This document shows positions 2,915-29,562 of a DNA stretch of 64,000 nt, piece after piece. Position 1 is the first letter of the stretch. Every line of letters starts with the position of its first letter. Below the pieces are notes generated by a model that had not been told where the DNA came from, made no database searches, and was given only the letters and a program-made list of their open reading frames with translations. Made by a program: the position numbers and the translations under genes. This DNA comes from Candidatus Loosdrechtia aerotolerans (GTDB taxonomy: Bacteria > Planctomycetota > Brocadiia > Brocadiales > Brocadiaceae), in assembly GCA_021646405.1 (NCBI GenBank), contig SOER01000010.1:1-64000 (forward strand), in the 5' to 3' direction.

Positions 2915-3616
2915 ATGGATATGGTATTGAAACTAAAGAATACGCCAAAATTTTTTGCTTTTATTTTTCTGCTTATAACTTTAGCTCACATTATAGTAAA
3001 ATCTATTGCATATTTTGTTGGCGATCGCCATGTAGTCGGGCTTTATCATTTGGTTAGCCTCTTTGACCTCGATAAAGAGAAAAGTATTCCAACATTTTGC
3101 TCTACAATAGCAATATTATCCTGCTCAGTCTTACTTGCTTTTATTGCCTTTACGAAAAAAAAGATCGGAGAAGGTTACTTTTACTGGTTAGGTTTATCAA
3201 TTATCTTTCTCTTTTTATCCGTCGATGAATTTACCTGCATTCACGAACGTCTTGTCAAACCGTTCCAACATACACTAAATACAACAGGTATTAATTACTT
3301 CGCCTGGATTATACCATATAGTATTATCCTGACTTTTTTCTTATTGGCATATACAAAATTTATAATCAACCTTCCAGGAAAAATACGGTTTTTATTTATT
3401 ATCGCTGGCCTACTCTATATTACAGGCGCTATTGGCTTTGAGTTTATTGGAGGGCGTTACCATGAGTTATATGGTGAGAGGAGTATAACTTATTTAATCT
3501 TAATGACTATTGAAGAATGTCTTGAGATGACAGGTATTATAATTTTTATTCACACACTTACGTTGTATATAGATTCACAGTTGAAAAACGCACAACTAAG
3601 GATACTATCTTCATAA
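2915..3616 (+). CDS. Multi-pass membrane protein of unknown function
   Basis: The 233-residue protein has about six or seven hydrophobic helices (roughly 11-31, 60-80, 88-104, 127-146, 154-175, 188-212). Charged residues are placed at helix ends or within helices: S-V-D-E-F-T-C-I-H-E-R around 101-112, G-F-E-F-I-G-G-R-Y-H-E-L around 172-183 and E-E-C-L-E-M-T-G around 197-204. Repeated Asp/Glu/His pairs of this kind suggest metal binding or membrane-embedded catalysis, but I cannot assign a family. It is preceded by 210 bases of non-coding DNA and followed directly by the IS remnant. Confidence 0.6.
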   Translation: MDMVLKLKNTPKFFAFIFLLITLAHIIVKSIAYFVGDRHVVGLYHLVSLFDLDKEKSIPTFCSTIAILSCSVLLAFIAFTKKKIGEGYFYWLGLSIIFLFLSVDEFTCIHERLVKPFQHTLNTTGINYFAWIIPYSIILTFFLLAYTKFIINLPGKIRFLFIIAGLLYITGAIGFEFIGGRYHELYGERSITYLILMTIEECLEMTGIIIFIHTLTLYIDSQLKNAQLRILSS

Positions 3617-23973: not shown

Positions 23974-24444
23974 CTACTTATTGCGCTTCTTTAACAGCCT
24001 TTCTTCATATTTCAATATAGTGTCTTCCTGTTCTTTCGTTTCAATTGAACCAGGTCTTTTTTTACGCACTTCCAGAATAGCCTTCCTTGCATTGCAACCT
24101 TTACTTACAAGATAACAAGCGAGCATCGTGCCAGTTCTTCCAATTCCGGCATCACAATGAACGACAATCCTTTTTTTAGAAGAAGTGAGGTTACTTACAA
24201 AGAATAAAAATTCATCAATTTGTTCCTGTGTTGGTGATGTAAGATCAACCACAGGAAGATGTTTATATTCGAAACCAAATTCTTCTATTAACGTTTTATG
24301 AAGTGGTTTTTCTGTTAAAGATACAATCGCTTCAATACCAATATCTTTAAGGAACTCAAGATCTGCTACTATAGACATGGGTCTTCCCATGCCAGCAATT
24401 TCATCCTGTATTAACCAACTAAAATTTCTAGGCATTTTTATCAT
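23974..24444 (-). CDS. Dual-specificity protein phosphatase-like protein
   Basis: The 156-residue protein has the Cys-phosphatase loop H-C-D-A-G-I-G-R-T at 96-104, with Cys97 nucleophile and Arg103, and a likely general acid Asp67 in V-V-D-L-T. It begins with F-S-W-L-I-Q-D-E-I-A-G-M-G-R-P near 8-22, typical of the atypical DSP/CDC14-like bacterial phosphatases. Substrates could be phosphotyrosine, phosphoserine/threonine or phosphoinositides. Its start overlaps the stop of maf by four bases, so the two are translationally coupled. Confidence 0.85.
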   Translation of the reverse strand: MIKMPRNFSWLIQDEIAGMGRPMSIVADLEFLKDIGIEAIVSLTEKPLHKTLIEEFGFEYKHLPVVDLTSPTQEQIDEFLFFVSNLTSSKKRIVVHCDAGIGRTGTMLACYLVSKGCNARKAILEVRKKRPGSIETKEQEDTILKYEERLLKKRNK

Positions 24445-25090: not shown

Positions 25091-25660
25091 TTATTTTTCT
25101 TTTGCTGTAACAACTTCCGGTTTAACCTCTTCCAATGGTTGAATCTCAGCACCTCCCTCAACTAATTCAAAAATAACTCGAGAGGCATTATCGTTGAGTC
25201 GCCTTCCGAGCATACGCAATTTTCTGTTCCTACCCTCCATGTTATACTCAAGCACCGGTATCTTTCCTACCGTACTTCCGGATAATGCACCCAACCGGGT
25301 TCCTGATAGTTTTAATATCCTGGTATATCCACCATTCCGGTTGAAATACCGTTGTGCAATACCACCTGTTTCACGCCATTCTCCTTCACCAAACATCTTT
25401 TTTACAACGTCGGCGTTTCCTAGTCTTGCAAGAACCTGACGATAACAATGGACATATCCAGGCCTATCAGTATCTTTTTTTAACAATCCTTTTTTAGCAA
25501 TCGTAATCACCTTTTCAGCAAAGGATTTCGTCTCTTTTGCTTTTTCAACTGTCGTAATAATCCTCCCGTAGGTAAAAAGGCTATTCGCAATATTTTGCCT
25601 TAACGCCTTCCTGTGGGCAGCGGTTCTCGATAAATGTCTTCCCCTCATTCTGTGTCTCAT
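25091..25660 (-). CDS. rplQ: 50S ribosomal protein L17
   Basis: bL17 lines the peptide exit tunnel region. The protein starts M-R-H-R-M-R-G-R-H-L-S-R-T-A-A-H-R-K-A-L, which is the family opening. At 189 residues it is about 60 longer than the E. coli protein; the extra C-terminal part (V-I-F-E-L-V-E-G-G-A-E-I-Q then acidic and lysine-rich) is an extension seen in various phyla. It is the last gene of the block, four bases after rpoA. Confidence 0.97.
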   Translation of the reverse strand: MRHRMRGRHLSRTAAHRKALRQNIANSLFTYGRIITTVEKAKETKSFAEKVITIAKKGLLKKDTDRPGYVHCYRQVLARLGNADVVKKMFGEGEWRETGGIAQRYFNRNGGYTRILKLSGTRLGALSGSTVGKIPVLEYNMEGRNRKLRMLGRRLNDNASRVIFELVEGGAEIQPLEEVKPEVVTAKEK

Positions 25661-25664
25661 AGAA

Positions 25665-26681
25665 TTACCCTTTCACTTTTTCTATCTGTTTCGTTGGCAG
25701 AGGCATTCCTATCGATAAATTCAGCTGCGCTAACTTTTTCTTTACCTCTTTTAACGTTGTTTTACCAAAATTTTTAATCCTGAGAAGTTGATCCTCTGTC
25801 TTTGAAATAAGATCTCCCACAGTTACAATGTTTGCAGTTTCAAGACAGTTGGAAGCCCTTACCGATAAATCTAACTCACTGATTGGCATATTAAGCTTTT
25901 TATTAAGCTCCTCTTCGGATATCTCCGGAGAAAATTCAACCCCTATTCTCTTTTCGACCTGTTGCAGTTCTCTGCCAATTTCAAAGTACTGGATAAACGG
26001 ATTTAAATGTTTCCTCATGATCTTTGCAGCCTCAACAATGGCCATTTCAGGTGAAATTACGCCGTTCGTCCATACCTCCATAATTAACCTGTCATAATTT
26101 GTCCGCCTACCAACGCGTGTCTCTTCTATAGAAAAACGGACATTCCTGACAGGAGAGAATAAAGAATCAATTGCTATTAATCCGATCTCCTGTTCCTCAG
26201 GCTCATACTCCTCTACTGTCACATATCCGCGCCCTTTCTGTACATGCATCTCTACGTTAAAATCTACATCTTCAGAAAGTGTTGCAATATGCAAATCTCC
26301 ATTCATGATTTCTACGGTAGCATCGGTAATAATATCTTTTGCCTTCACCTCACCCTTTTTATTTGTTTCGATCCTTACCACTTTAGGTTCATCAGTGTGA
26401 AGTTTAACAACAAGATTTTTTATATTCAATATTATATCCGTCACGTCTTCAACAACACCGGGAATATACGTGAATTCGTGACTGATATTATTTATTTTAA
26501 CAGATACTACGGCGCTTCCCTCTAATGAAGACAACAAAACTCTTCTTAAGCTGTTCCCTATACTGGTACCAAAACCACGTTCAAAAGGAGCAGCTATAAA
26601 CTTACCATATTTATCGGTCAGAGTCTCTCTCTCCACATTTAAACTGACTGGAAGCTCAAGACCTCTCCACCTTATCCGCAT
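25665..26681 (-). CDS. rpoA: DNA-directed RNA polymerase subunit alpha
   Basis: The 338-residue alpha subunit has the dimerising N-terminal domain ([22 protein letters not shown] family motif near 28-49) and the DNA/activator-binding C-terminal domain from about 260 ([14 protein letters not shown], then [10 protein letters not shown]). Length is normal. A 127-base gap ahead of it is the largest in the alpha part of the block and could hold an internal promoter, though only a -10-like TATAAT is visible. Confidence 0.98.
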
Positions 26682-26808: not shown

Positions 26809-27435
26809 TTATTTGGAACACAACTCTACGATTAACTGCTCTTGAATAGGGACTGAAACATCATCCCGATTAGGAAGTTGTGTTACTACTCCCCCCTGTT
26901 CATCTCCTCGGAAATCTATCCAAGCAGGAATATTTCGGCCTCTGACTAATTCGATATTCTGTTTTATTATGTTCAAACTTGATTCTACGTTCCTCGGCTT
27001 TACAACGTCCCCGGCTTTTACCAAATAAGAAGGAATATCCACTTTTTTATCATTGACAGTTATATGACCGTGCCTGATAATTTGTCTTGCATTTGCTCTT
27101 GAAGGGGCAAATGAAATTAAATACAGAACATTATCTAACCTTCTCTCGAGCATATTTAGCAGATTTTCACCGGTATTTCCTTTTTGCTTTTCAGCTTTCT
27201 CATAATAATTTCGAAACTGCCTTTCCAGAATTCCGTAAAAACGTTTTAGCTTCTGTTTTTCCCTGAATTGAAAACCATATTTCGATAATTTTCCCCTACT
27301 CCAGCTGCTTTTGCCGGGCGGATATTTACGCCTTGTAACCCCGCATTTCACTGTCTCACACCGGATTCCCTTTAAGAATAACTTTTCACCTTCTCTTCTG
27401 CACAATCTGCATTTTGGATCTGCGTATCTTGCCAT
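26809..27435 (-). CDS. rpsD: 30S ribosomal protein S4, zinc-binding type
   Basis: uS4 nucleates 30S assembly by binding 16S rRNA. The 208-residue protein carries four cysteines near the N-terminus (Cys9, Cys12, Cys26, Cys31), which is the zinc-binding C+ form, then the S4 RNA-binding domain (M-L-E-R-R-L-D-N-V-L-Y near 93-103, and R-Q-I-I-R-H-G-H-I near 117-125). Confidence 0.97.
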   Translation of the reverse strand: MARYADPKCRLCRREGEKLFLKGIRCETVKCGVTRRKYPPGKSSWSRGKLSKYGFQFREKQKLKRFYGILERQFRNYYEKAEKQKGNTGENLLNMLERRLDNVLYLISFAPSRANARQIIRHGHITVNDKKVDIPSYLVKAGDVVKPRNVESSLNIIKQNIELVRGRNIPAWIDFRGDEQGGVVTQLPNRDDVSVPIQEQLIVELCSK

Positions 27436-27480: not shown

Positions 27481-27861
27481 TCATACCCTGCGTTTTTTCC
27501 TCGGCCGACAACCATTATGAGGAAGCGGAGTAACATCTTCAATCGCTTTAAGGGTCAATCCTGCCGCTTGAAGCGCTGTAATTGCAGATTCTCTACCAGG
27601 GCCTGGCCCTTTAACCCTAACCTCAATTTCTTGGATTCCATATTTTCTGGCTTTTTCAGCTGCACTGGCAGCTGCCTTTTGAGCTGCAAATGGAGTACTC
27701 TTCCGCGATCCTTTAAAGCCAACCGTGCCTGCACTTGCCCAGCATATTGCCTCACCATTGATATCGGAAATCGTCACGTAAGTGTTATTGAATGTTGCTT
27801 TAATATTTGCAACCGCCCGTACGATATTATGCCTAACTTTTTTCTTAACAGCCGCCGACAT
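27481..27861 (-). CDS. rpsK: 30S ribosomal protein S11
   Basis: uS11 sits on the platform of the small subunit near the mRNA exit. The 126-residue frame has N-N-T-Y-V-T-I-S-D near 26-34, the [11 protein letters not shown] motif, G-P-G-P-G-R-E and the C-terminal [18 protein letters not shown]. Length is standard. In this genome it is separated from rpsM by a methyltransferase gene. Confidence 0.97.
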
Positions 27862-27918
27862 AGCTTTTTCTATCCCTCTAATAATAAAACATTTATTGTG
27901 TTAACTTTAATACTTTTT

Positions 27919-28725
27919 TCAATTTAATTCAAACTCAGTAAAATAATTTTCCAAAATGAAATTTGCATGAAATATCTCGTTGAGCTTTTTATACGTATTC
28001 ATATTACACTTTGCATCACCTTTTTTTTTACGCGCTATAATCATGAGATTTTTAGGTGTAAACTTAGGTGATGCAACTTCGGTCAATTTCACATGATAAC
28101 CGGCACCCGTCAAAAACTGTGCTCTCAAAGCTTCTGTTAAAATATCAGCAAAGCGATATCTCAACAATCCAAAATCTGTTATATCAACCAAGGGATGCCC
28201 CCGCTTCAAACGTCCCCTTACCTGGCCTTCACAACAAGGGACAACAACAATGTGTTTTGCTTTCAGCTTAATTCCTTTAGCAATAGCTTCATCGGTTGCA
28301 ATATCACATGCATGCAATGCCAAAACCACGTCAACCGGCTTCTCGGGCTGGGCGTCAATAATCCTGCTCCCGACGAATTTCATATTCTCATAACCAAGAG
28401 TATCCCTGATCTGATCACACTTCTCGATTAACGTTTGGTTGAAATCTACCCCATAAAAGAACGTATTTATCTGAAATCGCTTTGAAAGAATATAATTTAT
28501 AGCAAAAGACAAATATGACTTGCCGCACGAACATTCCAAAAACACAACTTCCTTATTTGCCGGATAGTTTTGAACGATCTGTATAACCTGCTCGCAAAAT
28601 CCAACCACTTCATTAAACTTCTTTATTCTCCGCTCATTGCCTAACTGCTCTATGTTTAGGGCTATAGCTCTCAAAAACTCTTTATCTGATCTTAACTCTT
28701 CTGCTATAGTTTTTGTATACCCCAT
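27919..28725 (-). CDS. SAM-dependent methyltransferase (PF13679-like) inside the alpha operon
   Basis: The 268-residue protein has a Rossmann-type methyltransferase core: motif I F-L-E-C-S-C-G-K-S-Y-L-S near 70-81, an acidic strand-2 end in Y-G-V-D-F-N near 99-104, A-L-H-A-C-D-I-A-T-D-E-A near 143-154 and V-V-P-C-C near 169-173. The Leu-His-Ala-Cys-Asp and Pro-Cys-Cys motifs match the GSTCD-like PF13679 family as I remember it. Target is unknown. It lies between rpsM (36 bases upstream) and rpsK (57 bases downstream) on the same strand, so it must be transcribed with them; a ribosomal protein, rRNA or translation-factor substrate is an inference from position only. Confidence 0.72.
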   Translation of the reverse strand: MGYTKTIAEELRSDKEFLRAIALNIEQLGNERRIKKFNEVVGFCEQVIQIVQNYPANKEVVFLECSCGKSYLSFAINYILSKRFQINTFFYGVDFNQTLIEKCDQIRDTLGYENMKFVGSRIIDAQPEKPVDVVLALHACDIATDEAIAKGIKLKAKHIVVVPCCEGQVRGRLKRGHPLVDITDFGLLRYRFADILTEALRAQFLTGAGYHVKLTEVASPKFTPKNLMIIARKKKGDAKCNMNTYKKLNEIFHANFILENYFTEFELN

Positions 28726-28761
28726 ATATTTTCTTCATAACTTATTGCTTAATAAAGCAGA

Positions 28762-29145
28762 TTAACCGAGTTCTTTAACACTCTTCTTACCAGCAACTGT
28801 TTTCTTACGTCCTTTTCTCGTGCGTGCATTAGTCTTCGTCCTTTGCCCTCTTACTGGTAAACCGAATCTGTGGCGCATACCTCTATAGCTACCAATGCTC
28901 TTCAAACGTGATATATTCTGTGTTTCCTGTCTGCGCAAATGACCTTCAATTGAAAAATTTCGTTCAATATAAACACCAACCGAACTAAGCTGGTCTTCAT
29001 GAAGATCCTTTGCGCGAATCCCTTCATCGATATTCAGGTCTTTCAATATCTTCTGGGATAACGACCTCCCTATTCCATAAATATAGGTAAGTGCAACAAC
29101 TATCCTTTTATCTGCGGGAATATCAGTTCCTGCAATTCTCGGCAT
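28762..29145 (-). CDS. rpsM: 30S ribosomal protein S13
   Basis: uS13 forms the head contacts to the large subunit and tRNAs. The 127-residue frame has the opening [15 protein letters not shown] near 23-27, [19 protein letters not shown] and the basic tail. Confidence 0.97.
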
Positions 29146-29189: not shown

Positions 29190-29303
29190 TTATCCTTGTC
29201 TTTGCTTATGACGAGGATTAGAGCAGATTACACGGATAACGTTTTTCCTTCGTATAATTTTACAATTCTCACAAATTCTTTTAACAGAAGCCCTTACTTT
29301 CAT
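29190..29303 (-). CDS. rpmJ: 50S ribosomal protein L36
   Basis: A 37-codon frame encodes bL36: [16 protein letters not shown], with the zinc ligands C-x2-C, a third Cys in V-I-C-S-N and a His in P-R-H-K, i.e. the zinc-binding form. It lies in its usual place between infA and rpsM. Confidence 0.96.
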
Positions 29304-29343: not shown

Positions 29344-29562
29344 TTATATTTGCCTATAAACAATTCTGCCCCTATCAAGATCATAAGGTGACATTTCAAT
29401 AACAACTTTATCACCAGGCAAAATCTTAATAAAGTGCATTCTCATCTTACCTGAAACATGTGCAAGTACTTTATGTCCATTCGGCAACTCTACCCAAAAC
29501 ATTGCATTGGGAAGCGCTTCTTTCACAACTGCTTCAACCCTTATCGGCTCTTCTTTTGCCAT
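29344..29562 (-). CDS. infA: Translation initiation factor IF-1
   Basis: The 72-residue S1-type OB-fold protein has the family pattern ([15 protein letters not shown], then [12 protein letters not shown]). IF-1 blocks the A site during initiation. It lies 25 bases after map. Confidence 0.97.

Follow-up and report, generated by a model that had tools for sequence, protein, structure and literature searches.

A PF13679 methyltransferase gene kept between rpsM and rpsK in anammox planctomycetes, and its putative link to the tRNA methyltransferase Trm13

Few bacterial gene clusters are as conserved in their order as the one to which the alpha operon belongs, according to the accessible portion of a survey that covered 204 species from the Proteobacteria, Acidobacteria, Firmicutes and Tenericutes (PMC8046335). 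Why does a planctomycete carry a methyltransferase gene inside this operon, and what does the enzyme act on? We addressed these questions starting from a contig of Candidatus Loosdrechtia aerotolerans, of which 64,000 nucleotides were analysed (this whole stretch is called the window). The order on the minus strand was secY, adk, map, infA, rpmJ, rpsM, methyltransferase, rpsK, rpsD, rpoA, rplQ (Table 1). The gaps of 36 bases towards rpsM (28726-28761) and 57 bases towards rpsK (27862-27918), all on the same strand, agreed with a preliminary description of the locus. The methyltransferase reading frame began with ATG, a start codon that fits the alignment of the family. Its product matched PF13679 (Methyltransf_32) at 117.7 bits (E = 5.3e-34, profile positions 1-141 of 143), far above the gathering cut-off of 27 bits, which bears out its earlier assignment as a PF13679-like SAM-dependent methyltransferase. 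NCBIfam gave no match for this protein (best E-value 0.068) and a single-sequence search of the PDB gave no hit; a PDB search with a sequence profile returned assorted methyltransferases (best E = 1.1e-6).

Table 1. Features of the alpha operon and of the methyltransferase in the window
Feature	Position	Strand	Description and source
methyltransferase gene	27919..28725	(-)	268 aa, single-domain PF13679 member; ORF list, Pfam search
SAM-binding motif I	28504..28542	(-)	residues 62-74, FLECSCGKSYLSF
LHACD	28303..28317	(-)	residues 137-141, after strand beta-4
PCC	28231..28239	(-)	residues 163-165, after strand beta-5
infA	29344..29562	(-)	ORF named from its translation
rpmJ (bL36)	29190..29303	(-)	37 codons, found by eye in the sequence
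rpsM (uS13), upstream neighbour	28762..29145	(-)	PF00416, 113.3 bits
rpsK (uS11), downstream neighbour	27481..27861	(-)	PF00411, 159 bits
rpsD (uS4)	26809..27435	(-)	ORF named from its translation
rpoA	25665..26681	(-)	ORF named from its translation
rplQ (bL17)	25091..25660	(-)	ORF and Pfam

The named relatives of the source organism (Brocadia, Jettenia, Scalindua and Anammoxibacter) identify its order as that of the anammox planctomycetes (Brocadiales in the NCBI lineage). A relative of the methyltransferase was present in 73 of 75 genomes of the class, and 71 of the 75 had a copy in the operon. These 71 belonged to families f1-f5, which form the same order (61 of its 62 genomes), f8 (one genome) and f9 (nine genomes). 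The preliminary description had proposed checking related genomes, and would have regarded the place as accidental had the gene occurred at unrelated loci in sister genomes. Instead, the position was identical in all 68 genomes where both rpsM and rpsK were visible (67 by script, and G027, seen separately), across seven families of the class; in three more (G004, G053 and G070), counted among the 71, a contig edge left the rpsK side alone in view. As for the other class genomes, the contig of G009 begins inside rpsK, so that the site is out of view; G062 and G063, both of family f6, had only free-standing long relatives, and G064 (family f7) had no relative. Four genomes of f9 (G066, G068, G069 and G074) had a second, free-standing relative beside the operon copy. 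In all 19 planctomycete loci without an operon copy (G062, G063, G064 and 16 others), rpsM and rpsK were adjacent, with at most about 270 bases separating their matched parts, and thus the insertion does break an otherwise unbroken pair, as had been suggested. In a sample of the whole phylum, a threshold of E 1e-20 gave a relative in 40 of 246 genomes; the same order accounted for 15 of these, and the remaining 25 carried it in open frames of 226-940 aa, 11 of them being among the 19 loci with adjacent rpsM and rpsK. The placement between rpsM and rpsK is therefore no accident but a real, old and conserved insertion.

We compared the operon genes with their free-standing relatives. In a maximum-likelihood tree built from the catalytic domains of 34 operon and 51 free-standing proteins there was a single change of place (SH-aLRT 99), which, as the tree was made by a quick method and rooted at its midpoint, is to be read as a split and not as a proven clade. 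The methyltransferase gene was under purifying selection, with dN/dS of 0.05-0.17 in 13 pairs, above that of rpsK and rpsD in every pair and well below 1. Free-standing PF13679 proteins of bacteria, which have no NCBIfam name, share the catalytic domain, the LHACD and PCC motifs and a C-terminal TPKN motif with the operon form, and differ from it in the residue that follows the cysteine pair: at least 39 of 53 had PCC-x-H, whereas the operon form has PCC-x-N/G. They were also longer. With the first start codon taken as the origin of the count, all but one (L091) of the 51 full-length free-standing relatives had at least 101 extra N-terminal residues, mostly 112-146, and the operon proteins are without this region of about 120 aa. 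A profile search of ten genomes (the order and f8) for the region as a separate gene found none, although the profile misses G068, whose free-standing copy L165 has such an extension, and hence a diverged form could be overlooked; the profile did match in G062, G063, G098 and G220. The catalytic part of 33 operon proteins was basic (median pI 8.9, net charge +7) by comparison with that of 50 free-standing proteins (median pI 6.3, net charge -2.5), a difference that may partly reflect proteome composition. Two free-standing proteins from Clostridia, both of about 535 aa, had C-terminal extensions of equal length (L110 and L101), which in L110 is a GNAT acetyltransferase domain.

The surroundings of the free-standing relatives had little in common. 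Ten genes of the operon were sought around 53 of them, and none was nearby except the family itself; 0 of 53 had a gene flanking the methyltransferase in the window nearby. There was likewise no widely shared neighbour among ORFs of at least 90 aa in flanks of up to 5 kb. The family itself aside, the three largest clusters of neighbours comprised 11, 7 and 6 loci, and several members of the 7-locus cluster overlap the methyltransferase gene on the opposite strand.

The fold of the enzyme was examined in an AlphaFold2 model (pLDDT 90.1), which has seven strands and by which the window protein is predicted to be a class I (Rossmann-like) SAM methyltransferase. Its best match among PDB folds was 1wy7_B (173 residues aligned with an rmsd of 3.0, Z 14.7); by name, the matches included PH1948 (Z 14.7), Coq5 (14.2), CmoM (14.1), METTL16 (14.0), TrmR (13.9), the 16S G527 enzyme RsmG (13.4) and the L11 methylase PrmA (13.3). 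The rows are tied and many, small-molecule and protein enzymes among them, and they establish the fold but do not discriminate between substrates. A structure library of viral proteins was more selective, as the two best rows for the window model were both annotated TRM13-like (E = 3.5e-8 and 6.8e-8; the next row followed at 5.5e-6), with moderate TM-scores by query of 0.55 and 0.57 and identity of 16-18%. Profile comparisons also led to Trm13. At E up to 1, the TRM13 profile PF05206 was reported for all 14 operon members scanned (best 5.1e-6), and the window protein scored 16.5 bits over residues 48-95 only, below the gathering cut-off of 26 bits. Among nine free-standing proteins scanned, L064 was the sole one above that cut-off (43.1 bits); seven others were below it, and L161 had no listing.

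Trm13 is the eukaryotic 2'-O-methyltransferase of tRNA position 4, and the available text of a review of yeast tRNA methyltransferases places K307, H350 and E467, together with cysteines, in the pocket of a Trm13p model, naming C304, C310, C343, C347, C348, C352, H308 and H350 among its residues (PMC10608323). In the operon family, His-x-Cys was conserved in all 71 distinct proteins, as was PCC, 24 residues from the Cys of His-x-Cys. By a pairing of our own, LHAC (H138 and C140) can be matched with H308/C310 of Trm13p and PCC (C164 and C165) with C347/C348. The likeness thus consists of a weak to clear profile score, the best structural matches in the viral library and a pocket with His-x-Cys and Cys-Cys. 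It has limits, as the operon protein lies below the PF05206 cut-off and is without the pocket His, the site paired with H350 being Asn or Gly in 71 of 71 proteins. A CHHC zinc finger is described for Trm13 in the same partial source (PMC10608323), and the 14 operon members, which at E up to 1 matched 20 Pfam families between them, matched no zinc finger. Judged from profiles and models, the operon family is putatively tied to eukaryotic Trm13, a tRNA ribose-2'-O methyltransferase, without being Trm13 proper; Trm13 would then have prokaryotic cousins in the PF13679 proteins of this study, and the nearest characterised relative of the operon protein appears to be a tRNA-methylating enzyme.

Our proposal is that the alpha operon acquired the gene of a Trm13-like SAM-dependent methyltransferase in a single event, at the place between rpsM and rpsK, in an ancestor shared by the order and the two further families (f8 and f9), and that the gene has been kept since. 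The operon protein differs from its free-standing relatives in three ways: the missing N-terminal region, the basic catalytic domain and a pocket with Cys-Cys-x-Asn/Gly where most relatives have Cys-Cys-x-His. Its target would be an RNA of the translation machinery, either 16S rRNA during 30S assembly or a tRNA, methylated most simply at a ribose 2'-OH, as by Trm13. We give this proposal as a whole, namely a single capture of a Trm13-like enzyme that was kept and methylates a translation RNA, a probability of about 50%. RNA methylation linked to translation (of 16S rRNA or tRNA) is the most likely function, and the link to Trm13 favours RNA over other classes of substrate. The more specific version, in which a prokaryotic Trm13 cousin carried by a ribosomal operon methylates 16S rRNA at a ribose (or base) as the 30S subunit assembles and so leaves an undescribed, lineage-specific mark, we regard as a tentative possibility. 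The cysteines of the Trm13p type resemble those of m5C/m5U enzymes, and may rather be structural, in the portion of PMC10608323 available, so C5 chemistry is possible as well.

The persistence of an extra gene in the alpha operon, across an entire order and in two more families of the class, points to a function of PF13679 linked to translation. PF13679 is a methyltransferase family without an assigned substrate among the literature matches listed, and those matches, from sources outside subscription journals, contained nothing on this gene arrangement or on a function of PF13679. METTL25, GSTCD and METTL25B/RRNAD1, which we take to be PF13679 members, are eukaryotic, unlike the operon protein; among the matches listed for them, the titles and abstract openings contained no assigned substrate. 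Because the nearest characterised relative appears to be an enzyme of tRNA methylation, anammox bacteria and their close kin may carry an unrecognised RNA methylation. This raises a directly testable question, namely which RNA anammox bacteria methylate with the operon enzyme, and the link to Trm13 bears on the origin of that eukaryotic tRNA enzyme.

It has also been suggested, in the preliminary description, that the dosage of the enzyme is locked to ribosome synthesis. Across 67 loci with distinct proteins, the mean anti-SD energy at the methyltransferase start was -1.9 kcal/mol (median -2.6), weaker than at rpsM (-6.1; median -4.9), rpsK (-5.9; median -5.7) and rpsD (-5.5; median -4.9). The SD match of infA was also weak (mean -1.2). 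A precedent is trmD of E. coli, where the gene order is rpsP-rimM-trmD-rplS and where the enzyme belongs to the SPOUT class of methyltransferases, a class other than that of the window protein. As far as the excerpt of PMC8643618 goes, trmD is, like the gene studied here, an RNA methyltransferase gene among ribosomal protein genes; it is co-transcribed with rpsP and rplS, TrmD acts on tRNA and its output is about 40-fold lower. Given the weak SD match and this precedent, the claim of a locked dosage is unsupported, and by analogy with TrmD a lower yield of the methyltransferase than of the ribosomal proteins is more likely. The ribosomal transcript would then supply the enzyme in catalytic, sub-stoichiometric amounts. 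Codon adaptation was uninformative, since it did not separate ribosomal from other genes, and promoter and terminator scans gave matches at the level of shuffled sequence.

The position and permanence of the gene suggest that its co-expression with ribosomal genes is under selection, and do not by themselves identify the substrate: since TrmD acts on tRNA, an enzyme encoded among ribosomal genes can have a substrate outside the ribosome. It is conceivable, if somewhat unlikely, that steady expression was the sole reason for the capture of the gene and that the enzyme acts on something unrelated to ribosomes. Such a history would suit the free-standing relatives, with neither the operon genes sought nor a widely shared neighbour around them, the small-molecule enzymes among the PDB matches and the example of TrmD, a neighbour of ribosomal genes that need not act on the ribosome. 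It sits less well with an unvarying position in the 68 genomes of seven families, with the basic catalytic domain and with a nearest characterised family that acts on tRNA.

We considered whether the enzyme methylates a ribosomal protein encoded beside it, such as uS11, uS13 or uS4. The adjacency, held in 71 of the 75 class genomes, is what this reading would predict, PrmC and PrmA are among the many structural matches, and the uS11 of E. coli bears an N-terminal methyl group for which we know of no enzyme. We compared the uS11 and uS13 of gene-bearing loci (68 and 67 sequences) with those of the 19 other loci and found, at thresholds of our own choosing, two uS11 and six uS13 positions that differ. 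Each of the eight residues of the gene bearers recurs, however, in one or more of the three class genomes that have no operon copy, and so none of the candidates tracks the gene. As the N-terminus of uS11 is moreover variable among gene bearers, and the Trm13 link points to RNA, we consider a ribosomal protein substrate unlikely.

If the target is 16S rRNA, as one form of the proposed translation-RNA reading has it, the enzyme might have replaced a known 16S methyltransferase. We therefore counted five of these enzymes, scoring genomes above the family cut-off (RsmI by TIGR00096, RsmB by TIGR00563). RsmI, the usual 2'-O-methyltransferase of 16S C1402, was present in four of the 75 class genomes, none of them among the 62 of the same order, against 10 of 14 control genomes, and RsmH, which acts on the same nucleotide, was found in 27 of 27 genomes tested, as was KsgA. 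This pattern is what replacement of RsmI would leave behind. RsmI is nevertheless missing from most of the phylum sample (above the cut-off in 33 of 246 Planctomycetota), and three f9 genomes (G071, G072 and G073) hold both genes, so that the operon gene is not confined to genomes without RsmI and its substitution for RsmI is very improbable. RsmG was above the cut-off in one of 27 genomes and in 9 of 14 controls; it did not pass in any of the three class genomes that have no operon copy.

RsmB, the 16S m5C967 enzyme, was above the cut-off in 10 of 27 genomes overall, comprising 4 of 18 sampled operon-bearing genomes and 6 of 9 sampled others. A takeover of its site by cysteine chemistry would accord with these counts and with the cysteines after strands 4 and 5, which recall m5C enzymes, a likeness noted for Trm13p in the part of PMC10608323 at hand. 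The RsmB model is strict, however, exceeding its cut-off in 5 of 14 controls, the counts are uncorrected for relatedness, and both genes occur in the genome of the window itself (G000) and in G001, G010 and G020. The distribution of RsmB is thus a lead towards m5C, weakened by the presence of both genes in the window's own genome, and we regard the takeover itself as extremely improbable. By these profile counts, none of the five 16S methyltransferases appears to be cleanly replaced by the operon enzyme.

Finally, the protein could assist 30S assembly without catalysis, like mitochondrial METTL17. Two substitutions would fit a loss of activity, as all 22 operon rows in alignment A2 have Ser in place of the first Gly of the motif I GxG, and Asn or Gly replaces the pocket His throughout; chain FF of 9hny, a mitoribosome entry that holds METTL15 and METTL17, also matched the model (Z 13.6, tied with others). 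Yet little or no variation is seen at G68 (the second Gly of motif I), at D94 (which follows strand 2) or at the His-x-Cys and Cys-Cys residues, as would be expected if the protein were an enzyme, and this makes a non-catalytic role quite improbable.

The operon itself varied in a few further respects. In the planctomycete loci L182, L183, L184 and L187 (f33) and L199 (f11), rpsD was unmatched between rpsK and rpoA, and the alpha operon thus seems to be without rpsD there. In Anammoxibacter-type members of f5 (L054, at 3150-3231, and L141 of G027), adk was unmatched between secY and map, where it is present in other members of the order. In one genome (G016, L021 1504-2293), the methyltransferase changes frame close to its C-terminus, with residues 4-240 in one frame and 230-267 in the other, through a frameshift or a sequencing error. 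Downstream of rplQ in the window, a gene for a phosphatase of the dual-specificity/PTP-SAK type (23974-24444, minus strand) overlaps maf by 4 bases.
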